DNA of 64,000 nt, from positions 310,001 through 374,000 of the forward strand of contig NZ_UHDZ01000001.1 in assembly GCF_900458815.1 (NCBI RefSeq), in the 5' to 3' direction. The notes beneath the pieces are model-generated. The model was not told the DNA's origin. It ran no database searches and saw only the letters and a list, made by a program, of their open reading frames with translations. How positions within the stretch are numbered: the first letter of the stretch is position 1; every line of letters starts with the position of its first letter. Of the stretch, positions 17,843 to 34,968 are shown in pieces. The position numbers were made by a program, and so were the translations under genes. The DNA comes from Staphylococcus saccharolyticus. GTDB taxonomy: Bacteria > Bacillota > Bacilli > Staphylococcales > Staphylococcaceae.

Positions 17843-19169
17843 ATGAATTGTTCTAATTGTGGAAAAAATAGAGGGAAATGATAAGTTTTGTGTTAACTGT
17901 GGTCAAAAGCAACAGTCTGGACATCATAATACGACATCAGAGAGTATGACAAAGATGAAAGAAGTAAAATGTCCAAACTGTCATGAACAGATTGAAAGCG
18001 AGGATAAGTTCTGCATGAATTGTGGTTATCATCTTCAAGATACCACATCACAAGTTCATCAAAGTGTGGAGGCACATACATATTCTGATACTGCACCCAA
18101 GGTTGAAAAGGAAGTTGCAGAAAGTATTAATCTTACAGAAGAAGCTAAAAATCTTTTCAATAACACAACTAAGTCTATTGGCAAACTCGCAGGTAATGAG
18201 GAGAGTTTAAAACTGAATCTACGAGATATGTTTTCAGAAGTTTTTAAATCTCATACAAAAGATGAGTCTGATGCAGTATTTATTGCGGGAACTGAAAGTA
18301 CAACGCCGCATATTAATGAAGTTTCTGAAGAATGGGGAAGACCATAGGTATTTTCTCGCGTATTTCTAGCATTAGGAATTACATTTTTAGCGTTATGGCT
18401 TTTAACAAATGTTTTTGTTAATGAAAAGGCAGTACCTGGGATGATTTTTATTGGTGCATTAACAATTCCTATATCTGGATTAATCTTCTTCTTTGAATCA
18501 AATGCTTTTAAAAATATTAGTATCTTTAATGTCATGGAAATGTTCTTTATCGGAGGTGTTTTTTCACTTCTTAGTACAATGATACTTTATAACTTTGTGA
18601 CATTTAGCGAAGAGTCACAGTATTATGGAGTGATGACAATTAGAGATGCTTTCTTAGTTGGATTAGTAGAAGAAATGGGCAAAGCAGTGATTGTCATTTT
18701 ATTTGTAAACTATTTAAAAACAAATAAAATTCTTAATGGTTTACTTATAGGTGCGTCAGTTGGCGCTGGATTTGCTGTGTTTGAGATAGCAGGCTACATT
18801 TTGGAGTATAGTTTATCATCTTATGATGAGCTCAGTGCTATGACGGAATTAATTGTGGCAAGAGGTTGGACTTCTTTAGGTGGTCATTTAGTATGGGCCG
18901 CTATTGTTGGTGCTGCAGCAGTGATAGTTAAAGAAACATGAAACTTTGAGTGGACAAATATTATAGATAAACGTTTCTTATTTTTCTTTTTTGTAGCCGC
19001 TGTGCTTCACGGAATATGGGATACAGATATCACTATTTTGGGTAGCTTGAATTTGAAATATATCTTGCTAATTGTGATTGCTAGGATATTTATTTTTATA
19101 CTAATGAAATCAGATTTGACACAGGTAAATAAACTGCGCAAGGAATACAATAGCATGGAAGAAGGTTGA
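17843..19169 (+). pseudogene. Zinc-ribbon + PrsW-type intramembrane protease gene, three lesions
   Basis: The gene starts MNCSNCGK at 17843, shifts frame in an A run near 17864, and then gives two zinc ribbons (FCVNCG and CPNCHEQ...FCMNCG). A linker follows, then a PrsW-like membrane domain with the diagnostic glutamate pair VEEMGKAVI, FAVFEIAGY and HGIWDTD (EExxK, FxxxE, HxxxD). Two in-frame stops interrupt it, TAG at 18345 (likely from TGG) and TGA at 18939. The frame then reads on to 19169 with MEEG at the end. PrsW proteases cleave membrane-anchored substrates such as anti-sigma factors. The gene is almost certainly dead in this strain. Confidence 0.78.
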
Positions 19170-19174
19170 TTTTT

Positions 19175-19947
19175 ATGAAATTTTGTCCCAATTGTGGAAA
19201 CCCATTAAAGGAAGGTCAATCATTTTGTAACAAGTGTGGTTCAAAGCTACAGAAAGCTCAAGGTAAAAGCATTGACAAATGCCTCACGACATAAGGTCAT
19301 CAACCCAATCGTCAACAGTGTCCATATAAGGACCAACAGCAAAGAAATAACATGTATACTGAATCTTATAGAGAAAAGAAACATACAGGTTGGCTTATTA
19401 TGTTATCAATTATTTTTATATTGTTGATAGCTACACTTTTATACGGAGCTTATTATGCTACGACCATTATATTAAAAGAGATGATAATCAACATCAAACG
19501 ACTCAATTTAACCAAACGCATGAGAAAGATAGTAGTGATGTGAGTAAAAACTCAAATAGTCCTAAAATTAATATTTTTAGTAGTGATTTCGATATAGGCT
19601 ATATGAAGTCTGCTTCTACGAATGGCTATCATGGTGTCTATAAAGGGATGACTCGTCAAGAAGTTGAAGATAAATATGGAAAGTCTGACGGTAAAGTTGA
19701 AAGTTTAAAATGGAAGTATGAAAAATATGGTGATTTAGCGGTAGCTTACGAAGATAATGAAGTTATACAAGTTGGTGTTGCGCCAAAGAATTTGACTGAA
19801 GACAAATTCATAAGCACATATCATGAGCCAGATAATAAAAATTCAGATCAACTTATTTATGACAATAATAAAGATAACGGCTTTTCTGTTCTAGTAAATG
19901 TGAAAAACGGTAACTTTACAGTTATCGAAAATGTAAATCAAATCTAA
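19175..19947 (+). pseudogene. Zinc-ribbon single-pass membrane protein gene, disrupted
   Basis: It starts MKFCPNCGNPLKEGQ with a four-cysteine ribbon (CPNCG, FCNKCG). TAA at 19292 is an in-frame stop inside a Gln-rich linker, and a CAA codon is the likely ancestor. The same frame continues with a helix (WLIMLSIIFILLIA), and a frameshift near 19480 leads into the extracellular part. That part carries KGMTRQEVEDKYGKSDGKVE, a motif reminiscent of SmpA/BLIP-like fold repeats. It lies six bases after the PrsW gene, so the two zinc-ribbon genes formed one operon. The function is unknown. Confidence 0.68.
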
Positions 19948-19964
19948 ACAGATTAAGAAATTAG

Positions 19965-20003
19965 CCATTCAATGCTTAAGTATCTAACATTGAATGGTTT
20001 TTT
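19965..20003 (+). terminator. Terminator after zinc-ribbon operon
   Basis: The perfect 10-bp stem CCATTCAATG (19965-19974) / CATTGAATGG (19988-19997) is followed by six T. Confidence 0.85.
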
Positions 20004-20047
20004 AAGCATTATTTTTGAAATATAATCATTCATACAATATACTACAA

Positions 20048-20065
20048 TCAATCGCGCACGATTGA
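20048..20065. promoter_or_regulatory. Candidate operator (inverted repeat) before the MarR-type gene
   Basis: TCAATCG-CGCA-CGATTGA is a perfect 7-bp inverted repeat ending 15 bases before the GTG start and just before the AGAGGTG ribosome site. Its position fits autorepression by the encoded MarR-type regulator. This is inference; the core differs from the usual AT-rich OhrR site. Confidence 0.5.
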
Positions 20066-20079
20066 AAAGAGGTGAATGT

Positions 20080-20520
20080 GTGAATAAAAAAGATATGGTA
20101 CTTGCAAACCAGTTATGTTTTTCAGCATATAATGTAAGTCGTTTGTTTGCGAAATTCTATGAAAAAGAACTTAAACGGTTTGGTTTAACCTATTCACAGT
20201 ATCTCGTGTTATTAGCATTGTGGGAAAATGACAATCAAACTCTAAATGCCATTGGTAAGCAATTAGAGTTATCTAGTAACACGCTAACCCCATTATTAAA
20301 AAGGCTCGAACAAGCAGGATGGGTTAAAAGAGGACGATCGAGAGAAGATAAAAGACAACTTATTGTTACTCTTACACATAAAGCGTATCGGCAACAAGAC
20401 GCAGTATTTAAAGCTATTTCTAGCTGTATACCACACGAATTTAACTCAACAGAATATTTTAAAACGAAAGAAGTATTCGACGAACTAGAATCAACGCTGA
20501 AAGCACTCATACAAAAATAA
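20080..20520 (+). CDS. MarR-family thiol-sensing regulator (OhrR/SarZ-like)
   Basis: This is a 146-residue dimeric winged-helix repressor. Cysteine 13 in NQLCFSAYNVSRLF is at the position of the redox-sensing cysteine of SarZ, MgrA and OhrR. The recognition region is LELSSNTLTPLLKRLEQAG and the wing REDKRQLIVTLT. GTG 20080 with AGAGGTG at 20069 is the best start, while an upstream in-frame start at 20062 would overlap that site. The next gene is a disulfide oxidoreductase and then a peroxidase-like gene, so regulation by organic peroxide, quinone or disulfide stress is likely. It is not sarZ or mgrA itself by context. Confidence 0.82.
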   Translation: MNKKDMVLANQLCFSAYNVSRLFAKFYEKELKRFGLTYSQYLVLLALWENDNQTLNAIGKQLELSSNTLTPLLKRLEQAGWVKRGRSREDKRQLIVTLTHKAYRQQDAVFKAISSCIPHEFNSTEYFKTKEVFDELESTLKALIQK

Positions 20521-20538
20521 TAAAAAGGATCAGGGAAT

Positions 20539-21883
20539 ATGAAACAAATATGATGCAGTATTTCTAGGAAGTGGACACGCAGCATGGCATGCAGCACTTA
20601 CTTTAAAACAATTTGGTAAATCTGTAGCAATCGTAGAAAAAGATACAATCGCAGGAACATGTACGAACTTTGGTTGTAACGCTAAAATTTTACTTGAAGG
20701 CCCCTATGAGGTATTAGAAGAAGCAGCTCAATATCCAAATATTATCAATACACAAAATCTTGAAGTGAATTGGCAAAGTTTAATGGACTATAAAAAAGAA
20801 TTTATTAATCCAATGTCTGGTTCTCTTACATCATTGTTTGAAAATCAAGGTATTGATGTCATTATGGGTAAAGGTACTATTTTAGATGAACACAGTATTG
20901 ATGTAGAGGGAGAAACAGTTGGTGCAGAATACATTGTTGTGGCAACAGGACAACATAGTAATAAATTAGGTATTGAAGGTAAAGAATATACGAATGATAG
21001 TAGAGATTTCTTATCAATGGAGTCTCTTCCTAATAGTATTACTTTCATTGGAGCAGGTATCATAAGTATAGAATTTGCTTCTATCATGATTAAATTAGGT
21101 GTTGAAGTCAATGTGGTTCATAATAATAATGAACCTTTAAAAGGCTTTAATGAAGCACATATCGATAAATTAATAGAAAAATTAAAATCAGAAGGTGTCA
21201 ATTTCTATTTCAATGAAAATACTCAATCAGTTCAACCATCAGGTGAACGTTTTGTAGTAACTACTGAATCTGGATTATCACTTGAAACGGATTATGTACT
21301 AGATGCAACAGGTAGAAAACCTAATGTTCAAGATATAGGTCTAGAAAAAGTAGGTATTAAATTTAGTGGTAGAGGTATTGTAGTTGATGAACACTTAAGA
21401 ACAAATGTGAAAAACATTTTTGCAAGCGGTGATGTACTTGATAAAAGTATTCCTAAATTAACACCAACTGCAACATTTGAATTTAATTATATCGCTGCTT
21501 ATATTCTTGGATTGAATCAACAACCAATACAATATCCTGCAATTCCTTCAGTATTATATTCACTACCAAGATTATCTCAAATAGGTGTGACAGTAAGTGA
21601 AGCTCAAAACAACGATGATTATACAGTAAAAGATATACCATTCGATCAACAAATGGTATTTGAATATCAAAATGAAACTGAAGCGGAAATGTCTATCGTA
21701 CTAGATAGTAATAAACGTTTAGTTGGTGCCGAAATTTATGGTAATGAAGCAAATGATTTAGTGAATTTATTAGTATTTATTATTAATAATAAAATGACTG
21801 TTCAAGAACTAAGTCAAAATATCTTTGCATTCCTTGGAGCTTCTAGTGGCGTTATTGATTTGTTAAAAATTGCAATGATGTAG
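20539..21883 (+). pseudogene. Pyridine nucleotide-disulfide oxidoreductase, frameshift at codon 4
   Basis: ATG 20539 with AAAGGA upstream reads MKQI and then stops. Dropping one A from CAAATATG gives MKQYDAVFLGSGHAAWHAAL, the expected FAD-binding start, and the frame is then open to 21883 (about 447 residues). The redox pair is in GTCTNFGCNAKILL. NAD binding is at SITFIGAGIISIEF, the second FAD motif is NIFASGDVL, and the dimer domain follows. It resembles mercuric-reductase-like or dihydrolipoamide-dehydrogenase-like flavoproteins. No start in the good frame precedes the FAD domain, so the protein is not made unless the shift is a sequence error or is bypassed. Confidence 0.75.
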
Positions 21884-21895
21884 GGGGATGTCCCA

Positions 21896-22375
21896 ATGAA
21901 TATGAGTGTTTATGATATAGAGGTTGAAAATTATAATGGTTCTACTTATTTTTTAGAAAAATATAAAGGAAAGGTTCTTATTATCGTAAATACTGCAACT
22001 AATTGCGCATTGAATGATCAATTAAAAAAATTAGAAACGATTTATAGAAAGTATAATAAAGATGGTTTAGAAATTTTATGTTTTCCATATAATGATTTTG
22101 ACAATCAAGAACCGGGATTAATGAAAAATATTTATCGAAAATATCGTCATGATTTTGGTATAACTTTTCCCATTCATTATAAAATTAGTGTAAATGGAGA
22201 CAATGAGCATCTTTTATATACTTTATTAAAATTTAAGCAACCGGGATTATTTGGTTCACAAATCAAGTGGAACTTCACTAAATTTGTGATAGATCGAGAG
22301 GGGAATGTTGTCAAAAGGTATTTACCTTTTGACAAGCTTGAACAAATTGAAATATATATTCGACAATTATTATGA
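21896..22375 (+). CDS. Divergent glutathione-peroxidase-like protein
   Basis: This 159-residue thioredoxin-fold protein of the GPx family keeps the peroxidatic cysteine region (IVNTATNCALNDQ) and the C-terminal WNFTKFVID block with the Trp-Asn of the catalytic tetrad. The usual FPCNQFG motif is FPYNDFD here, so the catalytic Gln is Asp and the Cys is Tyr. The resolving cysteine expected before YGVTFP is also absent (RKYRHDFGITFP). It is thus a one-cysteine, divergent member. It starts 12 bases after the disulfide reductase gene (GGGGGA site) and is probably co-transcribed with it. It could act as a thiol peroxidase for a specific substrate or have lost activity. Confidence 0.78.
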   Translation: MNMSVYDIEVENYNGSTYFLEKYKGKVLIIVNTATNCALNDQLKKLETIYRKYNKDGLEILCFPYNDFDNQEPGLMKNIYRKYRHDFGITFPIHYKISVNGDNEHLLYTLLKFKQPGLFGSQIKWNFTKFVIDREGNVVKRYLPFDKLEQIEIYIRQLL

Positions 22376-22383
22376 GCCATAGT

Positions 22384-22416
22384 TAGGATTAGACGCATGC
22401 ATCTAATCCTATTTTT
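22384..22416 (+). terminator. Terminator after the peroxidase-like gene
   Basis: The stem AGGATTAGA (22385-22393) / TCTAATCCT (22402-22410) is followed by ATTTTT. Confidence 0.85.
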
Positions 22417-22562
22417 ATGTAAAAATTAACGGTAGAACTTTACAACCTCGTCTTGACTTTCAATATGAAAATAGTTAAAGTATAAAACATAATTATTCTG
22501 ACAATTAATATATGTTTTGTTGTATTGGATTAATTTATGTATTGAAGGGGGACCATAGATTA

Positions 22563-23299
22563 ATGTCAGTAGATACAATCACTTATGACAATTTCGTTGG
22601 TGATCCATTTATTAATGAGGTTAATACTGATAATGAAACAAAAGGTACGTATCACATCATAAAGTGGGCTTACCAAACTTATGGTGACACCATTGTTTAC
22701 TCATGTAGCCTTGGAGCAGAAAGTATGGTGTTAATTGATTTAATTTATCAAATTAAACCAGATGCACAAATTGTCTTTTTAGATACAGACTTACATTTTC
22801 AAGAGACGTATGATTTGATTGATAGAGTGAAAGAAAAGTATCCACAATTACGTATTAATAAAATGAAAAAGGCAGAACTTACATTAGACAAACAAGCGGA
22901 GAAATATAATCCAGCTTTAAGGAAGAATAATCCTAACACCAATGTTGTTACATACGCAAGATTAAGCCATTAGAAGAAGTGTTGTCTGGAGCAATAGCTT
23001 GGATTTCAGGGTTAAGAAGAGATCAGTCTCCTACATGTGCACATACTAATTTTATAAATAAAGATGAACGTTTTAATTCAATTAATGTGTGTCCATTAAT
23101 TTATTGGACTGAGGATGAAGTATGGAATTATATTAAATCTTATAATTTACCTTATAATGAACTTCACGATCAATACTATCCAAGTATTGGTTGTATTACT
23201 TGTACGTCACCAGTGTTTGATTCTAATGATTCGCGTGCAGGACGTTGGTCTAATTTTAACAAAACTGAGTGTGGTCTGCATGTTGCAGACAAATCATAG
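22563..23299 (+). pseudogene. cysH: cysH, (phospho)adenylylsulfate reductase, frameshifted
   Basis: CysH reduces activated sulfate to sulfite with thioredoxin. The first frame (MSVDTITYDNFVGDPF, then VYSCSLGAESMVL and DTDLHFQETYD) runs to NPNTNVV and stops at 22973. The other frame supplies [19 protein letters not shown], then [20 protein letters not shown] and ECGLH to 23299. Removing an AC dinucleotide from AACACC near 22940 joins the two frames at the CC of the iron-sulfur or active-site cysteine set. So the lesion is an AC duplication. Without it the enzyme lacks all C-terminal cysteines, and activity is lost. The start has GGGG 11 bases upstream. It is the first gene of the sulfate operon. 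Confidence 0.85.
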
Positions 23300-23618
23300 A
23301 AGATTGACAAAAATTTTTAAGATTAAAACATGGTAATCCTATAAGTTATTAAATCATTTAGACGTATTATTTTTTTCAATAGACTTTAAATACGTTTGAC
23401 TTTCACTTTAATAAATTTTCTTAACAACGATACTTACTTTATAAGTTGAAATAGCAAGTTATTGCTTATGTGATAACACTAATACAATGTCCAGTATATT
23501 TAATTTACTGTTAAGAGTATTTGGTACATACTAGAAATGAAGATATTAAAAATGGTTTTTTAAAATATTATTTACTAAATGTTAATGTCAGGATAACAAA
23601 GTTAAGAGGTGGATATGA
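23300..23618. other. Long gap inside the sulfate locus
   Basis: This stretch of about 320 AT-rich bases lies between cysH and cysJ. I see no ORF, terminator with T-run or recognisable riboswitch. It is long enough to hold a separate promoter for cysJ and downstream genes. A CymR-type site may be present, but I cannot identify one confidently. Confidence 0.45.
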
Positions 23619-25478
23619 TTGAACTTAAGTGTCACAAATAGTCCTTTTACTGAAGGACAAGCATCACAAATTAATGAATTACTTCAAACCTTAACGCCTA
23701 ATCAAAAAGCATGGTTAAGTGGCTATCTAATGGCAAACCAACAAACAATTACAACATCAGACAGTGTAGCGAAGAATGAAACATCTCCACAAACTTTAAA
23801 TAATAATACTGAAGCTATGTTGCAACAAAATGGGCCTTCAGTCACACCTGAAAAACGTTCGATAGCGGTTTTATATGGCTCGGAAACAGGAAATGCTCAA
23901 GGTTTAGCAGAAATATTTGAGCAAAGACTATCTGATATTGGTAACAATGTAACATTGAAATCTATGGATGCATTTAAACCCAAAGATTTAAAGAAAGTAG
24001 AGGATTTATTTATTGTTACTGCAACGCATGGTGAAGGAGATCCACCAGATAATGCTGTGGAATTGCATGAATACATTCATGGAAGAAAAGCACCTAAATT
24101 AAATGGCGTAAGATTCTCAGTTCTTGCGTTAGGGGATCAAACCTACGAATTCTTTTGTCAGACTGGCAAAGACTTTGATAATCGTTTAGCCGAATTAGGA
24201 GCAGAAAGAATTTATAATCGTGTTGATTGTGACGTTGATTATGAAGAAGCTGCTGAAAAATGGATGGCTAATGTTATCAGCGCTATAGATTCTACGCCAG
24301 CAGGTACAGAAAGCGAACAAATTGTAAGTGAATCTATTAAATCAGATAAAGAAAAGAAGTATTCTAAGTCTAATCCTTATGAAGCGGAAGTACTGACAAA
24401 TATTAATTTAAATGGTAGAGGTTCTAATAAAGAAACGAGACATATTGAGCTTCTTCTTGATAATTTTGGCGAAGAATATGAGCCTGGAGATTGTCTTGTT
24501 GTATTACCTCAAAATGACCCAGCTTTGGTAGATTTATTAGTAAGTACGCTAGGTTGGAGCCCAGATACACAAGTGTTGATTAATGAATATGGAGATACTT
24601 TAAATCTTGAAGAGGCTTTAACCTCTCATTTTGAAATTACGAAGCTAACTAAACCACTTTTAGAAAATGCTGCTATGTTCTTTGATAATGATGAATTAAC
24701 TGAAAAAATTCAAGATAAAGCATGGATTCAGAGTTATATAGAAGGTCGTGACTTTATCGATTTATTAAATGACTTTGCGACGACTGAATTGCAACCAGAA
24801 AATCTACATCAATTATTAAGAAAGCTACCACCAAGAGAATATTCGATTTCTAGTAGCTACAAAGCTACACCAGATGAAGTGCATATCACTGTGGGTACTG
24901 TAAGATACAATACACACAGTCGCAATCGTGCGGGCGTGTGTTCAGTTCAATTTGCAGAGAGAATCCAAGAAGGAGATACCGTTCCAATATATTTAAAAAG
25001 AAATCCTAATTTTAAATTTCCTAAAGATGATTCGACACCTGTGATTATGATAGGTCCAGGTACTGGTGTTGCACCTTTTAGATCGTATATGCAAGAATGT
25101 GAAGAATTAGGTTTTGAGGGCAATACATGGCTATTTTTCGGTGAACAACATTTTACAACTGATTTTCTTTATCAAACTGAATGGCAAGAGTGGCTTAAAG
25201 ACGGTACTTTATCAAAGTTAGATGTTGCATTTTCTAGAGACACTGATCAAAAGGTATATGTTCAACATAGAATTACCGAAAATAGTGAGCAATTTAATCA
25301 ATGGCTTGAAAACGGTGCAGTGATATATATTTGTGGCGATGAAAGTAAAATGGCTAAGGATGTTCATGAAGCGATTAAAAGTGTACTAAAGAAAGAACAA
25401 AATTTATCTGATGAGGATGCAGAAGTATATCTAAAACAGTTAAAACGAGATAAAAGATATCAACGAGACGTGTATTAA
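23619..25478 (+). CDS. cysJ: Sulfite reductase (NADPH) flavoprotein alpha subunit
   Basis: This intact 619-residue protein passes electrons from NADPH through FAD and FMN to the CysI hemoprotein. It has an N-terminal flavodoxin domain (about 82-225: [40 protein letters not shown]). The FAD-binding ferredoxin-reductase part follows (REYSISSS near 409, GVCSVQFAE), then the NADPH domain ([28 protein letters not shown]) and a C-terminal VY. TTG 23619 has AGGTGG eight bases upstream. Length is normal for CysJ. Its electron acceptor gene, cysI, immediately downstream, is ruined, so the flavoprotein may be an orphan diaphorase here. Confidence 0.92.
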
Positions 25479-25497
25479 TAGAAAGGATGGGGGATAC

Positions 25498-27107
25498 ATG
25501 GCTAATTCATATAAGTATATTTCAGAAGAACTTGATAAAAATTTTGATGAAATGGAATTCTTAAAAGCCGATAGTAACTTTCTACGCGGAACGATTGAAC
25601 AAGGACTTGCTGATCCAATTACGGGCTCAATTACGCAAGATGATGCTAAACTATTAAAGTTCCACGGAAGTTACATGCAAGATGATAGAGATTTAAGAGA
25701 TGAACGTCGTAAACAAAAGCTTGAACCAGCTTATAAATTTATGATTCGTGTTCGCGTACCGGTGGGTAAAGCGACACCGGCACAATGGATGATATTTCAA
25801 ATCAACATGCCAATCATACAAGTAAACTAACTACACGCCAAGCTTTTCAATTTCATGGAATTCTCAAACATGACTTAAAGAAATCAATGAAAAAAATTAA
25901 TGGTTCGGTCCTAGATTCTATTGCAGCATGTGGTGACGTTAACCGTAATACAATGTGTAATCTAAATCCATATCAGTCTCGCGTTCATAAAGAAGTTAAT
26001 GATTATGCGACGACTATTAGTAACCATTTACTTCTAAGAACAGGAGCATATCATGAAATTTGGTTAGATGGTAAAAAAGTTTTGGATTCTAGTGAAGAAA
26101 AAGAGCCTATTTATGGTAAGATGTATTTACCACGCAAATTTAAAATCGGCATAGCAGTACCACCTTCTAATGATATCGACGTCTACCTGCAAGATATAGG
26201 TTTAATTGCAATTGTTGATAAGGATAAGTTAGTTGGATTTAACATCATAATAGGGGGCAGTATGGGAATGACACATGGAAACACAGATACTTACCCTCAA
26301 TTAGGTCGCTTAATTGGATTTATACCTAAAGAGAAAGTCATAGAAGTGTGCGAAAAGCTGCTCACCATTCAACACGTGATTATGTTAATCGTGAAAATCG
26401 CAAAAATGCACGTTTTAAATATACAGTAGACCGACTTGGAGAAGAATGGGTGACTGAAGAATTGAATCGTCGTTTAGGATGGGAGATTGAAAATGCACGT
26501 GACTTTGAATTTAAACATAATGGTGACCGATTTAGGGTGGATTGAAGGCGAAGGGAATTGGAACTTTACTCTATTTATTCAAAATGGTCGCGTTAAAGAT
26601 ACCGTAGATTATAAATTGAAAACGGCGTTGAGAGAAATTGCTGAAATTCATACAGGTGATTTTAGATTATCACCGAATCAAAACTTAGTGATTGCTAATG
26701 TAAAACCTGATAAAAAAGATGATATTCAAGCAATTATTGATAAATACAAGTTAACTGATGATAAAAATTATCCAGGTTTACGTAGAAATTCAATGGCATG
26801 TGTAGTCTTTCCAACTTGTGGTTTAGCCATGGCAGAATCAGAAAGATATTTGCCATCTTTAATCTCTAAAATTGAATATTTATTAGATCAAGCTGGAATA
26901 CAAGATGAGGACATAACCATTCGCATGACTGGTTGTCCAAATGGGTGTGCAAGACCAGTGTTAGCTGAAATCGCATTTATTGGTAAAGCTCCAGGTAAGT
27001 ATAATATGTATTTAGGTGGCAGCTTTAAAGGTGAACACTTTGGCGATTTTGTTATTCGCACTGGAGTTGTAGGCAAAGTACACGATGGTCGAGACTTCCA
27101 TAGCTAA
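25498..27107 (+). pseudogene. cysI: cysI, sulfite reductase hemoprotein beta subunit, multiply disrupted
   Basis: Four overlapping frames together spell a siroheme/4Fe-4S sulfite reductase: [15 protein letters not shown] at the start, the [13 protein letters not shown] block, [17 protein letters not shown], and near the end [16 protein letters not shown] with [11 protein letters not shown] cysteine ligands. Shifts lie near 25790 (with loss of a few residues), 26360 (extra AC in CAACACGTG) and 26535 (extra T in CGATTTAGG). The end also jumps from LGGSFKGE directly to HFGDFV, where about 30 residues are normally present, an apparent in-frame deletion between two GE pairs. Several independent lesions make this a certain pseudogene. 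It lies 19 bases after cysJ. Confidence 0.88.
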
Positions 27108-27127
27108 ATAAAGGGGGAATGGTTCAT

Positions 27128-27905
27128 ATGGGTAAGATATTTTTAGTGGGAGCTGGACCCGGTGATCCAGAATTTTAACAATTAAAGGTTTGAAGGCAAT
27201 TAAAGAGGCCGATGTGATACTGTATGACAGATTAGTAAACAAAGATATCTTAAGCTATGCATCTACTTCTACAAAATTCTTCTATTGTGGTAAAGATCCC
27301 AATAGTCATTCTTTACCACAAGAAGCCACAAATAAAATGATGGTTACATTAGCAAGAAAAGGACATACGGTGACGCGTCTTAAAGGTGGGGATCCATTCG
27401 TCTTTGGTCGTGGGGGAGAAGAAGCGGAAGTATTAGCAAGTAATAAGATTCCTTTTGAAATTGTACCTGGCATTACGTCGGGGATAGCAGCACCGGCTTA
27501 TGCTGGTATTCCAGTGACTCACCGAGATTATAGTTCATCAGTTGCCTTTGTGACTGCAGTCAATAAACTAGGAATGGACAAAGATAGATATTGGGAACAT
27601 CTGGCAAATGGTCCTGAAACATTATGTGTTTATATGGGAGTGAAACGTCTTCCTGAAATTTGTGAATTATTGATGCACCATGGACGTTCAGAAGTGAACC
27701 AGTAGCACTTGTACACATGGGAACATCTCAACAACAGATTACTGTAGTTGGCACACTGAATTCAATCTTAGATAAAACGCATCATATTAAAAATCCGGCT
27801 ATGATTGTTATAGGGGAAGTTGTAAAAATGAGAGAAAACATAAACTGGTTTACAGAGCAAACGATAGAATCTGAAGTGACGTTAACTCAGATAACATCTA
27901 CCTAG
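27128..27905 (+). pseudogene. cobA: Uroporphyrinogen-III C-methyltransferase gene, two frameshifts
   Basis: This SAM-dependent enzyme makes precorrin-2 for siroheme, the CysI cofactor. ATG 27128 reads MGKIFLVGAGPGDPE and then terminates because a T is missing from TTTTAACA near 27174. The next frame gives LKAIKEADVILYDRLVN, GGDPFVFGRGGEE and GITSGIAAPAYAGIPVTHR. A second shift (missing C in AACCAGTAG near 27700) precedes PVALVHMGTSQQQ, and the frame ends at 27905. Restoring both gives about 258 residues, the normal single-domain size. AGGGGGAA precedes the start. It is the third gene of the cysJ unit. Confidence 0.85.
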
Positions 27906-27997
27906 TTGACTAGAATTAAGAGTTACCATGTATTGAGTTATTTATGTGAAGGATTATGAAATAATAGATAAAGTAACAAATATAGGAGGAGATCATC

Positions 27998-28609
27998 GTG
28001 AATATACCATTAATGGTTGATTTAACTAAAAAAAAGATAATCATCGTCGGGGGAGGAAAAATTGCAACTCGCCGTGTTCAAACATTGTTAGATTATACGA
28101 ATAATATTCACGTGATTAGTCCAACTATTACAGAAACAATAGAAAAGTTAGTAAAGACTGGACGTATTTCTTACTCGGAAAAATGTTTTGAGTCTAAAGA
28201 TATTGAAAAAGCAGATTTAGTGATTGCAGCTACAAATCTTGAAATGGTTAATAATCAAGTTAGATTATCAGTGCCAAGCCATGCATTATTTAATCATGCC
28301 GGACGTGCTGAGTTGGGAAATATCACTTTTCCAAATGTTTTTAAAAGAGATAGATTAACAATCAGTGTTTCTACTGGAGGGGTAAGTCCTAAATTAGGGC
28401 AGCGTATTATTAAAAGTTTAGAAGATACTTATACAGAAGATTATGCAGACTATGTTCAGTTTTTATATGAAAGTAGAAAGTACATTAAAGCACTCAAAAT
28501 AGGGCCATCTGATAAACAAGCGTTACTTGAAGACATTTTATCAGACACATATTTAGATGAGAAGAAGCAACATGTATTCATCCGATGGCTTAAATCACAA
28601 GTCAAATGA
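27998..28609 (+). CDS. Precorrin-2 dehydrogenase / siroheme synthase N-terminal type
   Basis: This is an intact 203-residue NAD-dependent enzyme of the CysG N-terminal/Met8/YlnF family, converting precorrin-2 to sirohydrochlorin and possibly inserting iron. Rossmann motif IIVGGGKIATRR is near residue 12, with DLVIAATN near 73. The usual NITFPN and ISVSTGGVSPKLGQRI blocks are also present. GTG 27998 has AGGAGG upstream. In Bacillus such genes sit in the sulfate operon, as here. Siroheme may also serve nitrite reductase elsewhere in the genome, which could explain why this gene is spared while its neighbours decayed. Confidence 0.86.
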   Translation: MNIPLMVDLTKKKIIIVGGGKIATRRVQTLLDYTNNIHVISPTITETIEKLVKTGRISYSEKCFESKDIEKADLVIAATNLEMVNNQVRLSVPSHALFNHAGRAELGNITFPNVFKRDRLTISVSTGGVSPKLGQRIIKSLEDTYTEDYADYVQFLYESRKYIKALKIGPSDKQALLEDILSDTYLDEKKQHVFIRWLKSQVK

Positions 28610-28628
28610 AGAACGGGGCATTTAATAT

Positions 28629-29457
28629 ATGCGCAAAGTGTTAATTTTTGCAATCGCAGGATTCTTAGCTCAACTTGTAGATGGATCTCTAGGAATGGGA
28701 TCTGGCGCTTCATCATCATCTATTTTATTAACTTATGGTATAGCACCAGCAATTGTATCTGCTACGTTTCACTTTTCAGAAATTGCGATTACAGCTGCTT
28801 CAGGTACGTCGCATTGGAAATTTGAAAATGTACATAAATCTACCATGTTAAAGCTTGCTATACTAGGTTCAATTAGTGCTTTTATAGGAGCGGGTGTTTT
28901 AACTTTTATTCATGGTGATTATATCAATTTTTATTCAAACGTGCACATGAGCATCATACACATGTAGGTGATTTAAATAGTTTCAAAGTGATTCCTCAAG
29001 GAGCAATTGCAGGATTTTAGATGCAATCGAAGGTGGTGGTTGGGGACCTGTAAATACACCACTTTTACTTTCAAGTAAAAAGATTCAACCTCGCTATGCT
29101 ATTGGTATAGTATCAGCAAGTGAATTTTTTGTAACATCTTCGGCAGCAATTAGTTTTATTATCTTTTTAGGGTTAACTCAAATCAATTGGTTTGCTGTCA
29201 TAGCGTTAAGTTTATGTGGCATGGTTGCTGCGCCTATATCCGCTTATTTAGTTAAGATTTTACCAATTAATATTTTGGCTATTTGTGTAGGTGGTTTAAT
29301 TATTTTTACAAATAGTAATGCGTTACTGAGTTATTTTGTTCATGATGCAACCATTTCAAATACAATAAGAAGCATTATATTGGTAGCAATTACTGTTTTA
29401 CTCGTTGTTCAGATGATTCGAAACAAGAAATTGTCTTTTTCTTACAAGAAAAACTGA
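28629..29457 (+). pseudogene. TauE/SafE (TSUP) sulfur-compound transporter gene, disrupted
   Basis: The first frame (112 residues) gives FAIAGFLAQLVDGSLGMG, the TSUP glycine signature, and three or four helices before stopping at 28967. The remaining helices are spread over other frames: KRAHEHHTHVGDLNSFK, a second signature DAIGGGGWGPV-like block near 29020, then GMVAAPISAYLVK to 29457. A deletion and shift lie near 28935. A T lost from GGATTTTAGATG near 29010 gives another shift. TSUP proteins beside cys genes are thought to move sulfate or sulfite. The gene lies 19 bases after the precorrin-2 dehydrogenase gene. Confidence 0.8.
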
Positions 29458-29499
29458 GTAAACAAATATAATTAATTGGATAAAGGAGCTTTTGAGATA

Positions 29500-30659
29500 A
29501 TGTCTAATAATGAAGAAGTAATCAACTATACAATTCAACCACATGGAGGCGAACTAATTAATCGCGTTATTGATGGCGAACAAAGAGAACGATTGATTGA
29601 AGAGGCGGCTGCGTACAAATCAATTACTTTAAATCCGTGGGAGATTTTTGATTTAGAACTTTATCGGTATTGGTGGATTCAGTCCTTTAACTGGATTTTT
29701 GAGTGAAGCATATTACACTAAAGTGGTCGAAGAAGCCCATTTAGAAAACGGATTAGTATGGAGTATTCCAATCACTTTACCTGTAACTGAAGATGAGGCA
29801 GATCAACTTAACATTGGTGATAACGTTGCTTTATATGGTGAAGATGGTAAGTTGTACGGAACGCTTAAATTAGAAGAAAAATATACCTATGATAAAGAAA
29901 AAGAAGCAAGATTAGTCTATGGAATAACTGAAGATGAGCACCCAGGTGTCAAGAAAGTTTATGAAAAAGGGAATATTTATTTAGCTGGACCTATCCAATT
30001 ACTAAACCGTCGACACATGATGAATTCTCGGAATATCATTTAAATCCTTTAGAGACAAGACAGTTATTCCATGATTTAGGATGGAAGACAGTCGTAGGAT
30101 TCCAAACTCGAAATCCTGTTCATCGTGCACATGCATACATTCAAAAATCAGCACTAGAAATCGTAGACGGTTTATTGTTAAATCCTCTTGTAGGTGAGAC
30201 TAAATCAGATGATATACCTGCTGATGTTCGTATGAAAAGTTATGAAGTAATACTTAAACATTATTATCCAAAAGAGCGAGCACGATTAGTTATTTATCCG
30301 GCAGCTATGCGCTATGCTGGACCACGTGAAGCCATTTTACATGCAACAGTTTGTAAAAATTATGGTTGTACACACTTTATAGTTTGACGTGATCACGTTG
30401 GTGTAGGCGATTACTATGGCACATATGAAACTCAAGAATTGATATCTCAATTTGAAGATGAATTAGAAATTCAAATTTTATTGTGAGGCATGTGGTAATA
30501 TGGCAACAGCTAAAACATGTCCGCATGATGCGTCTCAACACTTACATTTAAGTGGTACAAAAGTGAGAGAAAAGTTGCGTAATTGTGAATTCATTACCAA
30601 CGAAATTTTCTAGACTAGAAGTTGCTGAAGTTCTTATCAAAGGATTACGAGGTAAATAA
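29500..30659 (+). pseudogene. sat: sat, sulfate adenylyltransferase, heavily disrupted
   Basis: Sat makes APS from sulfate and ATP. The coding sequence begins [17 protein letters not shown] at 29500. Shifts occur near 29660 (extra T before the GIGGFS block), 30012 (missing base after LLNR), 30480 and 30590. TGA at 30385 interrupts HFIV-RDH, where a Gly codon is expected. A short deletion near 30480 removes the residues between QIL and YCEACGN. Recognisable blocks include [26 protein letters not shown] and [12 protein letters not shown]. Five or more independent lesions show this gene has been non-functional for some time. The gene ends 16 bases before cysC. Confidence 0.87.
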
Positions 30660-30674
30660 GAGAGGAGTGTAAAT

Positions 30675-31274
30675 ATGAGTAAATCTAATAATATTACTTG
30701 GCATGACTCTGAAATAACAAAGGAAGAACGACAACAACAAAACGGTCATAAGAGTGCAGTGATTTGGTTTACAGGATTATCGGTTTCCGGTAAATCGACG
30801 GTTTCCGTTGCGTTAGAGAAAGTACTATTTAATCTAGGTAAGTAAACATACCGTTTAGATGGCGACAATATACGTCACGAGTTAAATAAGAATCTTGGTT
30901 TTAGTCCTGAAGATCGTTCGGAAAATATTCGACGTATTGGAGAAGTAGCTAAACTGATGGTCGATGCAGGCGCGTTGACTATTACTGCTTTCATTTCTCC
31001 CTATAAAGAAGATCGTGATAATGTTAGAGTACTTTTTAAAGAAGATGAATTTATAGAAGTCTACACGAAGTGTAGTGTTGAAGAATGTGAGAAAAGAGAC
31101 CCTAAAGGTTTATATAAAAAGGCAAGAGCAGGAGAGATACCTGAATTTACAGGTATTAGTGCACCATATGAAGCGCCTGAACATCCTGAAATTGTTATAG
31201 GTACTGAAAATCAGACCATTGATCAGTCAGTTGAACAAATTATTCAATATCTTAAAAGTCATCAATATCTCTAG
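30675..31274 (+). pseudogene. cysC: cysC, adenylylsulfate kinase, single nonsense codon
   Basis: APS kinase phosphorylates APS to PAPS. From ATG 30675 (AGAGGAG upstream) one frame runs to 31274 with a full-length protein of 199 codons, interrupted only by TAA at 30843-30845 after NLGK. Gln (CAA) is the probable ancestor, so one C-to-T change suffices. P-loop is GLSVSGKST near residue 38 (the second Gly of the usual GLSGSGKST is Val). Other blocks are [31 protein letters not shown] and the C-terminal [13 protein letters not shown]. This is the least damaged gene of the set, suggesting recent loss. Confidence 0.88.
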
Positions 31275-31290
31275 TATTTAATGTAGAACG

Positions 31291-31321
31291 TGTGTAGCTT
31301 TTGAAGTTGCACACTTTTTTT
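31291..31321 (+). terminator. Terminator of the sulfate operon
   Basis: TGTGTAGCT (31291-31299) pairs with AGTTGCACA (31305-31313) including two G-U pairs and is followed by seven T after one C. Confidence 0.75.
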
Positions 31322-31638
31322 GCGTTATACATTTATTTTTTTCTTATAAATTGTCAGATAAATTACAATCTATGAAATAGCTATATTGAATATCACACTT
31401 TAAAAATTATCATCACAGTATTTTAGTTAATGTCATAAATTCAGTTGTTTTTTACAAGCTACGTCACATTATTATGATTCATTTACAAAGTATTAACATT
31501 CCCCAAAAAAGGTTGTGTATCTGTTAGAGTGAGTCTTGTCGTTAATTAACGAGAAAAAACTAAAGTAAGTTTAAGATTCAATTGAAGGTAGCCACGAGAT
31601 AGTTAAAAGTTTTATTCACTATTAGGAGGATATTAATT
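31322..31638. promoter_or_regulatory. Leader region of the CHAP amidase gene
   Basis: About 315 AT-rich bases lie here. A perfect 14-bp palindrome TCGTTAATTAACGA lies at 31539-31552, about 85 bases before the ATG, in what is probably the 5' UTR or promoter. No convincing WalR direct repeat was found on the coding strand. AGGAGGAT at the 3' end is the ribosome site. Confidence 0.45.
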
Positions 31639-32394
31639 ATGAAAAAGATCGCTACAGCTACAATCGCTACAGCAGGTATCGCAACTTTAGGATTTATGCA
31701 ACATGATGCAGATGCAGCAGAAAATAATAATGGATATAACCCTAACGATCCATATTCTTATAGCTACACTTATACAATCGATCAACAAGGTAATTATCAT
31801 TACCAATGGCAAGGTAACTGGAGTCCAGACCAAGCTCAACAAGGATATAATTATTCATATGGTAACCAAGGGACTCAAAACTATCGTTCATATCACAATT
31901 ACAACACAAACAATAATTATCAAAATCAATTATATACATCAAACAACAACCGCGGTGGCTTAAGTGCAAGTTACTCAACTTCAGACAGAAATGTTAAGGT
32001 TACTACGCAATCTGCACCATCTACAAAAGCTAAAAGTCAATCTTCAGTAGCATTCTCAGGTCAAGCGTCTTCAGGTTCAAACCTATATACTTCAGGTCAA
32101 TGTACATATTATGTATATGACAAAGTTGGCGGTAAAATTGGTTCAACTTGGGGTAATGCAAATAACTGGGCTAACGCAGCTACAAAAGATGGCTACACTG
32201 TAAATAATACACCTAAAAAAGGTGCAGTGATGCAAACTTCACAAGGTGCATTTGGACACGTTGCTTACGTTGAAAGTGTTAGTAGCAATGGTTCAGTTAA
32301 AGTATCTGAAATGAACTATAATGGTGGTCCTGGTGTTGTATCAACACGTACAATTTCAGCAAGCCAAGCTAAATCATATAACTATATCTCATAA
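31639..32394 (+). CDS. Secreted CHAP-domain amidase, SsaA family
   Basis: This 251-residue exported protein has a signal peptide (about 1-27, ending ADA before AENN). A low-complexity Tyr/Asn/Gln-rich linker (about 28-115) follows, then a C-terminal CHAP domain. Catalytic residues are C155 in [11 protein letters not shown] and H207 in AFGHVAYVE, and the domain ends MNYNGGPG with SYNYIS. The family hydrolyses amide bonds in peptidoglycan during wall turnover and is often under WalKR control. The linker is typical of staphylococcal secretory antigen SsaA-like proteins, of which genomes carry several copies, so I leave the exact paralog unnamed. The gene is intact, with its own terminator. Confidence 0.88.
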
Positions 32395-32411
32395 TTAGAT
32401 GAGTATGTTAT

Positions 32412-32444
32412 GTCACGAATCGGTATATGTTCGTGACTTTTTTT
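32412..32444 (+). terminator. Terminator of the CHAP amidase gene
   Basis: The stem GTCACGAA (32412-32419) / TTCGTGAC (32430-32437) is perfect, followed by seven T. Confidence 0.88.
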
Positions 32445-32592
32445 ATCTTTTTATAGACTTGCTAACTACATAAAATAAGATAGTTATTAGCTATACTGTG
32501 ATTGAAATGCTATAGAAAAGGGAACATACATACTAAGAGAGAAAAGTATTAATGAACTCTTAACAGAGTGACTTAAAGGATGGTGACAAATA

Positions 32593-32898
32593 ATGGCATT
32601 TAATATTTGGATGTGGATTTTGCTCGCATTAATTATCATCGTAACCATTGCAGTTATACTCATATTAACCGTAGGATCTGTTTTAGAAGAGCGGTCTTAC
32701 GATCATCGTTCTGAAACTGAAAAACGGCAAAATACAGAAAAAAATCTTGAAATGGCAAACGATCACACAGATGAAGATGATGAAGTTGATTCTATCGTTA
32801 ATAATCAACCTAAAGAAATGAAGTCCCATATTAAGAAAAAGAACTTACAAGATGCTCATAGCCATGATTATCATGTCACTCATGATGATTCTAAGTAA
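32593..32898 (+). CDS. Small membrane protein with acidic/His-rich tail, 101 residues
   Basis: An N-terminal helix (about residues 7-30, WMWILLALIIIVTIAVI) anchors a hydrophilic tail rich in Asp, Glu, His and Lys (NDHTDEDDEVDS, DAHSHDYHVTHDD). AAAGGATGG precedes ATG 32593. It is followed by a terminator and so is monocistronic. I recognise no family; the His/Asp-rich end could bind metal, but this is only suggested by composition. Confidence 0.65.
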   Translation: MAFNIWMWILLALIIIVTIAVILILTVGSVLEERSYDHRSETEKRQNTEKNLEMANDHTDEDDEVDSIVNNQPKEMKSHIKKKNLQDAHSHDYHVTHDDSK

Positions 32899-32927
32899 CA
32901 TATTTAAATTAATAATAGACAACCTTT

Positions 32928-32963
32928 AACCCTTAATGTTTGAAAAGACAGTTAAGGGTTTTT
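32928..32963 (+). terminator. Terminator after the small membrane protein gene
   Basis: AACCCTTAA (32928-32936) and TTAAGGGTT (32952-32960) form a perfect 9-bp stem running into TTTTT. Confidence 0.8.
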
Positions 32964-33058
32964 ATATTGTTTACAACAATATGCATAAAATACATAGAGT
33001 TCACTAAACGTTAAAAATCTTTATGACATTTTAGTTAACGACATGCTTATTCATTGTA

Positions 33059-33106
33059 ATACTATATATAGTGTTTTATTTTAAAATTAGATACTATATA
33101 TAGCGA
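33059..33106 (+). promoter_or_regulatory. Tandem NrdR boxes before nrdDG
   Basis: Two near-identical 16-base sites, ATACTATATATAGTGT (33059-33074) and ATACTATATATAGCGA (33091-33106), start 32 bases apart, about three helical turns. This is the known architecture of NrdR operators, which repress ribonucleotide reductase genes when dATP is abundant. The second box abuts the ribosome site of nrdD. Confidence 0.85.
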
Positions 33107-33117
33107 AGGGTGATGAA

Positions 33118-34968
33118 ATGACTACTTTAGAAACATCGATAACACGATTAATAACGAAAGATCCAACGATATTAAACGAAAACGCAAATAAAGATAGTAA
33201 TACATTTTCAACAATGAGAGATTTAACTGCAGGTACGGTATCTAGATCATATGCACTTGAACATTTACTTCCTAAGAATGTTGCGCAAGCACATCAATCT
33301 GGAGATATTCATTTTCATGATTTAGATTATCATCCATTTCAGCCATTGACGAATTGTTGTTTAATAGATGCTAAAGATATGTTAGAACAAGGATTTGAAA
33401 TTGGAAATGCTCATGTAACAACTCCAAAATCAATTCAAACAGCGTCAGCTCAACTTGTACAAATTATTGCTAATGTTTCTAGTAGCCAGTACGGTGGATG
33501 TACTGTAGACCGCGTAGATGAATTGCTTAGTACATATGCAAAAATTAACGAACAACATCATAGAGAAATGGCCAAAGCATTCGTTCAAACTGACAAACTT
33601 GAAGAATACGTTGATACACAAGTGACAAAAGATATTGGTGATGCCATTGAGAGTTTAGAGTACGAAATTAATACACTTTATACATCAAATGGGCAGACAC
33701 CATTCGTTACATTAGGATTAGGGCTTGGTACAGATAAATTGAGTCGTAAAATCCAACAAGCTATTTTACATACAAGAATTAAAGGTCTAGGTAAAGAACG
33801 TATGACTGCGATTTTCCCTAAACTTGTTTTTTCAATAAAAAAAGGGGTTAACTTTAGTCCGGAAGATCCTAATTATGATATTAAGCAACTTGCATTAGAA
33901 TGTTCAACTAAACGTATGTATCCAGATATTTTAAATTATAATAAGCTTGTTGAACTTTTAGGTGATTTTAAAGCGCCGATGGGTTGTCGTTCGTTTTTAC
34001 CTAGTTGGATGAATAATGATGGAGAATTTGAAAATAATGGTCGTTGTAATCTTGGCGTTGTAACTTTGAATGTACCGAGAATTGCTATTGAATCAAATGG
34101 AGACATGGAACAATTCTGGAATATTTTTGAACAACGAATGGAATTAATGCACGACGCTTTAGTTTATCGTATAGAAAGACTTTGTGATGCTATTCCAGAT
34201 AATGCGCCAATTCTTTATAAAAGTGGGGCATTTAAAAATAAACTTGATTCAGAAGATAAGGTGGAATCTTTATTTACAAATCAACGTGCTACGATTTCAA
34301 TGGGGTATATAGGATTGTATGAAGCAGCAACAATGTTTTATGGTCCAGATTGGGAACAAAATCCAGAAGCTAAAACATTCACATTAGATATTTTAAGAGA
34401 AATGAAACAGTATCAAGTCGCATGGACCAAACAATATGATATTTGGTTTAGTATATACAGTACTCCGAGTGAATCATTGACGGATAGATTTTGTCGTTTG
34501 GATAAAGAACGTTTTGGTGCTATCCCAGATATTACAGATAAAGGCTACTACCAAAGTTCATTCCACTATGATGTACGCAAGGATGTAACGCCATTCGAGA
34601 AATTAGACTTTGAAAAGGATTATCCATATTATGCAAGTGGCGGATTCATACATTATTGTGAATATCCAAAGTTAAATCACAATTTAAAAGCCTTAGAAGC
34701 GGTTTGGGATTATTCTTACGATAAGGTTGGCTATCTAGGTACAAATATTCCTATTGACCATTGTTATCGTTGTGATTACGATGGTGACTTTGAAACAACT
34801 GCTAATGGATATAGATGTCCACATTGTGGCAATGCAGATCCTAAAACAGTTGATGTCGTTAAACGTACGTGTGGCTATCTAGGCAATCCAGTTCAAAGAC
34901 CTGTAATAGAAGGTCGTCAAAAAGAAATTTGTGCCAGAGTAAAACATATGAAGGAACCTCGTTCATGA
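33118..34968 (+). CDS. nrdD: Anaerobic ribonucleoside-triphosphate reductase
   Basis: This 616-residue class III reductase makes dNTPs from NTPs without oxygen through a glycyl radical. The radical glycine is about G586 in KRTCGYLGNPVQRP. The zinc site is formed by CYRCDYDGDF and CPHCGN just upstream. The substrate-site region DIHFHDLDYHPFQPLTNC lies near residue 64. It is somewhat shorter than Gram-negative NrdD because it lacks much of the ATP-cone (the first 45 residues are short). It overlaps nrdG by ATGA, so the activase is translationally coupled. Expression is under the two NrdR boxes and probably rises without oxygen. The gene is intact. Confidence 0.93.
   Translation: MTTLETSITRLITKDPTILNENANKDSNTFSTMRDLTAGTVSRSYALEHLLPKNVAQAHQSGDIHFHDLDYHPFQPLTNCCLIDAKDMLEQGFEIGNAHVTTPKSIQTASAQLVQIIANVSSSQYGGCTVDRVDELLSTYAKINEQHHREMAKAFVQTDKLEEYVDTQVTKDIGDAIESLEYEINTLYTSNGQTPFVTLGLGLGTDKLSRKIQQAILHTRIKGLGKERMTAIFPKLVFSIKKGVNFSPEDPNYDIKQLALECSTKRMYPDILNYNKLVELLGDFKAPMGCRSFLPSWMNNDGEFENNGRCNLGVVTLNVPRIAIESNGDMEQFWNIFEQRMELMHDALVYRIERLCDAIPDNAPILYKSGAFKNKLDSEDKVESLFTNQRATISMGYIGLYEAATMFYGPDWEQNPEAKTFTLDILREMKQYQVAWTKQYDIWFSIYSTPSESLTDRFCRLDKERFGAIPDITDKGYYQSSFHYDVRKDVTPFEKLDFEKDYPYYASGGFIHYCEYPKLNHNLKALEAVWDYSYDKVGYLGTNIPIDHCYRCDYDGDFETTANGYRCPHCGNADPKTVDVVKRTCGYLGNPVQRPVIEGRQKEICARVKHMKEPRS

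Follow-up and report, generated by a model that had tools for sequence, protein, structure and literature searches.

Recent decay of the sulfate reduction locus in Staphylococcus saccharolyticus and the probable retention of sirC for nitrite reductase siroheme

The assimilatory sulfate reduction locus of Staphylococcus saccharolyticus, located at positions 22560-31274 of a 64,000-nucleotide stretch of its genome (the window; contig NZ_UHDZ01000001.1, positions 310,001 to 374,000 of the forward strand), consists of six broken genes and two genes without a lesion, cysJ and sirC. It can be held with good confidence that the locus has been inactivated recently as part of the known genome decay of the species, with the precorrin-2 dehydrogenase gene sirC probably kept because the nitrite reductase NirB needs siroheme. 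While the loss of the pathway itself is largely expected, the siroheme reason for keeping sirC is the new part and was absent from an earlier reading of the window made from its letters (the sequence-only reading). The arrangement of the eight genes is that of S. caprae and its relatives:

22560..23299, + strand: cysH pseudogene, 1 frameshift (alignment with relatives)
23619..25478, + strand: cysJ, sulfite reductase flavoprotein, intact, 619 aa (TIGR01931)
25498..27107, + strand: cysI pseudogene, 3 frameshifts plus ~100 bp deleted in frame (alignment with relatives)
27118..27905, + strand: cobA-type uroporphyrinogen-III methyltransferase (SUMT) pseudogene, 2 frameshifts (alignment, family match)
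27998..28609, + strand: sirC, precorrin-2 dehydrogenase, intact, 203 aa, sole copy found in the genome (TIGR01470)
28629..29475, + strand: transporter pseudogene, presumably of the TSUP family, as named in the sequence-only reading, 2 frameshifts, one of them a ~50 bp deletion (alignment with relatives)
29500..30659, + strand: sat (ATP sulfurylase) pseudogene, 4 frameshifts and 1 nonsense mutation (alignment with relatives)
30675..31274, + strand: cysC (APS kinase) pseudogene, 1 nonsense mutation (alignment with relatives)

Lesions were called by alignment with S. caprae (L004), G026 (L062) and G012 (L063), and with two relatives for the flanking genes. The six genes (5,919 bp) carry 15 lesions in total, cysJ and sirC none; the counts per gene and the lesion-free state of these two genes, as given in the sequence-only reading, were confirmed by the alignment. 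Left out of the count were an extra 3-base in-frame insertion in cysH, beside its single frameshifting indel, a third call in the cobA-type SUMT at the edge of the cut, and a stop close to the 3' end of the transporter gene, only a few codons short of it, as relatives with an intact gene end early too (291 vs 299 aa). The staphylococcal sulfate assimilation locus of S. caprae and G026 shares gene order and content with the window, which differs in that 6/8 genes are broken. CysJ, the TTG start of which is common to relatives, matches TIGR01931 with 788 bits (cut-off 668) and possesses flavodoxin and FNR domains with the conserved motifs present, while SirC matches TIGR01470, the cysG N-terminal NAD-binding domain, with 93.7 bits (cut-off 62.3).

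In the nitrite/nitrate operon of the same genome SirB, NirB, NirD, SUMT, NarGHJI, NreABC and NarT are all open (12/12 nir/nar genes over about 15 kb), their names, some of them presumed, being assigned by position and sequence, with NirB identified by TIGR02374, SUMT by TIGR01469 and NarT judged from the printed frame. The probability of 12/12 intact genes is 0.036 at the control rate of gene breakage given below, and there is a mild sign that the operon is under selection, as expectable in a species described as anaerobic. The siroheme route for NirBD is present and open throughout, comprising SUMT, SirC and SirB, the last recognized from its place in the operon and from a chelatase match that stays below cut-off. 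The nir operon here and in G026, G047, G004, G012, G013, G061 and G080 contains SirB and SUMT and gave no sirC match with either query, and in G036 sirC sits between SirB and NirB. The cys-locus sirC is, by family assignment, the only dehydrogenase step found for the siroheme of NirB and the cys-locus SUMT is predicted to be redundant, a nir-linked SUMT being present but no nir-linked sirC; this agrees with the decay of the SUMT gene and the intactness of sirC at the cys locus.

The explanation that best accommodates the observed lesions, open genes, copy numbers and genus-wide pattern is the following. With cysteine presumably derived from the host, sat, cysC, cysH, cysI and the transporter would be under no selection, while sirC would have stayed under selection as the nitrite reductase NirBD also needs siroheme. 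In the predicted flow of siroheme synthesis, the nir-linked SUMT would methylate uroporphyrinogen III, SirC from the cys locus would carry out the oxidation and the nir-linked SirB would insert the iron, the enzyme activities being deduced, and the cys-locus SUMT, duplicating its nir-linked counterpart, would have decayed. The gene cysJ would be intact either through a further NADPH-reductase role of CysJ or as it has not yet been hit.

Across 84 Staphylococcus genomes, including the one studied here (G000), two kinds of sirC match are found: a cys-locus form of ~200 aa with at least 38% identity in 54 genomes, and a short form of about 155 aa with 25-36% identity in 43 genomes, located in 43/43 within ~160 bp of a nirB match (coordinates compared by eye). 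Both forms occur in 14 genomes and neither only in G007, which shows no nirB above cut-off, no cysI match and no sirC. Of the 58 sat-bearing genomes, 33 contain just the cys-locus form, 11 just the nir-linked form and 14 both; G000 possesses the cys-locus form only, in one copy by protein search and by TIGR01470. Among the 26 sat-less genomes, the cys-locus copy is kept in 7/7 with nirB and without nir-linked sirC, versus 0/18 with nir-linked sirC, and the remaining one (G007) has neither. A family search in 12 chosen genomes gave one match each in G000 and the seven and none in G007, and does detect the nir-linked sirC in G036 and G043. The nir-linked arrangement (e.g. G036, L092) also supplies a precorrin-2 dehydrogenase gene, placed beside nirB, but differs in the shorter and divergent gene, its 18 sat-less bearers being without the cys-locus copy. 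According to a study on positive selection, sirC and cysG are tied to NirB via siroheme in S. epidermidis (PMC13095176). A testable rule can be formulated, namely that a staphylococcus giving up sulfate keeps the cys-locus sirC only if NirB is without its own siroheme dehydrogenase.

In the seven sat-less genomes with a cys-locus sirC, cysJ is likewise retained at its position, whereas the remaining six genes are missing from the locus. This cysJ-sirC remnant is present in at least two other lineages, six S. aureus-like genomes (G004, G006, G058, G060, G061 and G066, so labelled from the cysJ-sirC locus and the gene listing in PMC11520302) and G047, the sister to sat-bearing G080. In the tree G047 groups with G080, and the window groups with G026, G012 and G013, separate from the S. 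aureus-like clade, so that the remnant has formed at least twice and is forming for a third time here. In S. aureus, PMC11520302 lists SAUSA300_2554 (cysJ) and SAUSA300_2553 (cysG) together, a cysJ-cysG(sirC) unit in which the same two genes are left after loss of the rest. However, the six S. aureus-like genomes are without trace of the other six genes (tblastn, E 1e-6), whereas the window still shows pseudogenes.

That this lineage has given up sulfate reduction, and recently, had been proposed in the sequence-only reading and is borne out. Of the genes for functional assimilatory sulfate reduction, sat, cysC, cysH and cysI are all broken, and a genome search bearing on an intact second cys operon gave no second sat or cysI; for cysH, PF01507 returned one other match, a weak one, while cysC was not searched outside the locus. 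The non-synonymous divergence (dN) of the window branch relative to relatives is 1.15x (bootstrap 0.92-1.41) when the six broken genes are pooled, compared with 1.03 (0.75-1.31) for cysJ and sirC. As the broken genes show little excess amino-acid change, selection acted along most of the window branch and the genes were lost late on it.

Several observations weigh against the siroheme explanation. SirC activity is assigned from a family match only, with the best NCBIfam model carrying a neutral name. The contrast of the 7 with the 18 genomes (Fisher p 2e-6) is too strong a figure in view of few independent lineages, and G057, which belongs to the 18, has a nirB split in two. In the S. aureus-like genomes sirC is the less constrained of the two remnant genes, with a ratio of non-synonymous to synonymous divergence (dN/dS) of 0.12-0.38 and of 0.35-0.38 in the three closest pairs. 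On the window branch, dN fails to separate spared from broken genes, as the intervals given above overlap; as a means to tell them apart it is uninformative, since the loss is recent and dS is almost saturated. Judged from the number of lesions, chance would leave sirC alone unhit with p 0.32, and the sparing of both genes has p 0.0053, but 0.056 for any spared genes of this total length.

The last figure, together with the recent loss, speaks for the alternative that all eight genes are neutral and that cysJ and sirC have so far merely escaped mutation, as does G047, where a stop at codon 74 demonstrates that cysJ can be hit. Yet two other lineages have retained just these two genes, and whether sirC is kept agrees with the state of the nir-linked copy, present or absent, in 25/25 sat-less genomes with nirB above cut-off, so that chance is considered an unlikely cause. 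Still far less credible is the proposal of the sequence-only reading that the graded damage, with five lesions in sat versus one in cysC, records the order of gene loss: lesion counts across the six genes track gene length (chi-square 2.0, simulated p 0.86) and, for that reason, record no order. Raised dN in cysI (1.45, 1.06-1.96, uncorrected for 11 genes) is a weak hint of its early loss, but the interval includes 1 in the other five broken genes. As a separate observation, a single frameshift, differing in position from genome to genome, splits sat in 3/57 other sat-bearing genomes, L063 (G012), L075 (G051) and L011/L076 (S. hominis, G033), with open frames of 248, 264 and 303 aa versus 389 or more elsewhere. 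In G012, cysI is also interrupted, by a stop at codon 529 of 572. The split sat genes may reflect either decay at an early stage or errors of assembly.

The decay of the whole genome, missing from the sequence-only reading, is a known phenomenon in this species, for which frameshifts in genes, the loss of amino-acid pathways and a recent change of habitat have already been described (PMC6423177; PMC7953294; PMC8066136). In strain 13T0028, 469 of 2,221 coding sequences are inactivated (PMC7953294), and two further reports state at least 301 pseudogenes (PMC6423177) and auxotrophy for most amino acids (PMC8066136). The words 'sulfate' and 'sulfur' are absent from the main texts of PMC6423177, PMC8066136 and PMC9742538 and the sulfate locus is unmentioned in PMC7953294, though the supplements may list these genes; no title or displayed abstract, on which most papers were judged, turned up describing the sirC rule or, for S. 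saccharolyticus, the sulfate locus. The second contig of the assembly (C2, 19,923 bp) is 100% identical to the S. saccharolyticus plasmid NZ_CP068030.1. Although the plasmid is identical, the chromosome (C1) has 2,346,514 bp versus the 2,332,643 bp printed for 13T0028, so that the strain may be a different one.

The background rate of gene breakage was derived from eight 20-kb control pairs versus G026, six of which were not collinear and were dropped. The two remaining pairs gave matches for 33 of 38 G026 queries, of which 25 were intact and 8 broken; in the reverse direction 36/41 matched, with 29 intact, 3 broken and 4 partial. This control rate of 8/33 is close to the published one (PMC7953294), and at these rates at least 6 of 8 broken genes have p about 0.002-0.004. 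A mismatch-repair mutator was considered as cause and rejected, mutS and mutL being open.

That the genes are in fact intact and only seem broken through mistakes in assembly or base calling is barely conceivable: 9/15 lesions are, it is true, one- or two-base indels, but four are deletions of 10 to ~100 bp, which together with the clean nir/nar genes of the same genome makes base-calling error unlikely as their source. A strain with the identical plasmid was, moreover, assembled at 205-fold Illumina coverage (PMC7953294), though it may not be the strain of the window.

The reason for the intactness of cysJ is less clear-cut than for sirC. The genome holds no intact CysI partner for CysJ, since the sole cysI found is broken, and in the six S. 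aureus-like genomes no TIGR02041 match over cut-off was obtained for cysI. Despite this, cysJ shows purifying selection there (dN/dS 0.08-0.14) and conserved domains in three aligned genomes, which suggests that it is probably in use without cysI in this clade and raises a question for the S. aureus group. On the other hand, the stop in G047, unless an assembly error, means that cysJ is not always needed. The sparing of cysJ alone by chance has p 0.023, although sparing judged from lesion counts alone is weak evidence. Tentatively, CysJ of staphylococci might have a second, CysI-independent job that preserves it once sulfate use is gone, and cysJ-sirC might be a real two-gene module rather than a leftover, a possibility to which we give somewhat less than even chances. 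If true, the module would combine an NADPH reductase with a step of siroheme synthesis and might be linked to the metabolism of nitrite or to anaerobic metabolism. At L073 and L074 (G007 and G009) a distant gene resembling cysJ (49-52% identity) is found, both genomes being without sat and a true cysI match, and similar second cysJ-like copies occur in many sat-bearing genomes.

Bacterial nitric oxide synthase (NOS) is not known to carry its own reductase, and NOS is matched in 84/84 genomes, yet it can hardly be the reason for keeping CysJ as electron donor, as NOS is present whether or not cysJ is lost and as partner is contradicted for this strain by its split gene, found in two pieces (G000:C1:900751-901673). 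The other 83 genomes match NOS in one piece, two of those matches containing a stop.

With respect to cysteine supply, three open PALP-family genes are present in the genome, one of which, of 310 aa, may be CysK. Adjacent PALP and Cys/Met-metabolism genes at C1:2237030-2239041 and a pair at 2304422-2306623 are broken or interrupted, which contrasts with the methionine-to-cysteine conversion predicted for strain 13T028 in PMC8066136. The likely source is uptake of cysteine, cystine or peptides. S. aureus is unable to assimilate sulfate, according to PMC10355420.

No Rfam family reached gathering score in 19000-33500, a range that takes in the locus, no tRNA gene is located within the window, and a promoter scan showed no excess (40 sites vs 42.5 in shuffles). 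The flanking features are:

20062..20520, + strand: regulator, which we take from its sequence to be MarR-type, intact (78% to S. caprae, full length)
20546..21883, + strand: FAD/NAD(P) disulfide oxidoreductase, ahead of gpx (family match; body open)
21896..22375, + strand: glutathione-peroxidase-type gene, intact (comparison with relatives, family match)
31290..31314, + strand: hairpin resembling a terminator, followed by a T run and located behind cysC (matched by consensus only; 6 sites of this kind vs 4.2 in shuffles)

The six S. aureus-like genomes, too, have a homologue of the glutathione-peroxidase-type gene upstream of cysJ. The oxidoreductase gene is probably damaged at its start, with its first codons out of frame with the ATG and an apparent frame change near the start (window 20500-20620).

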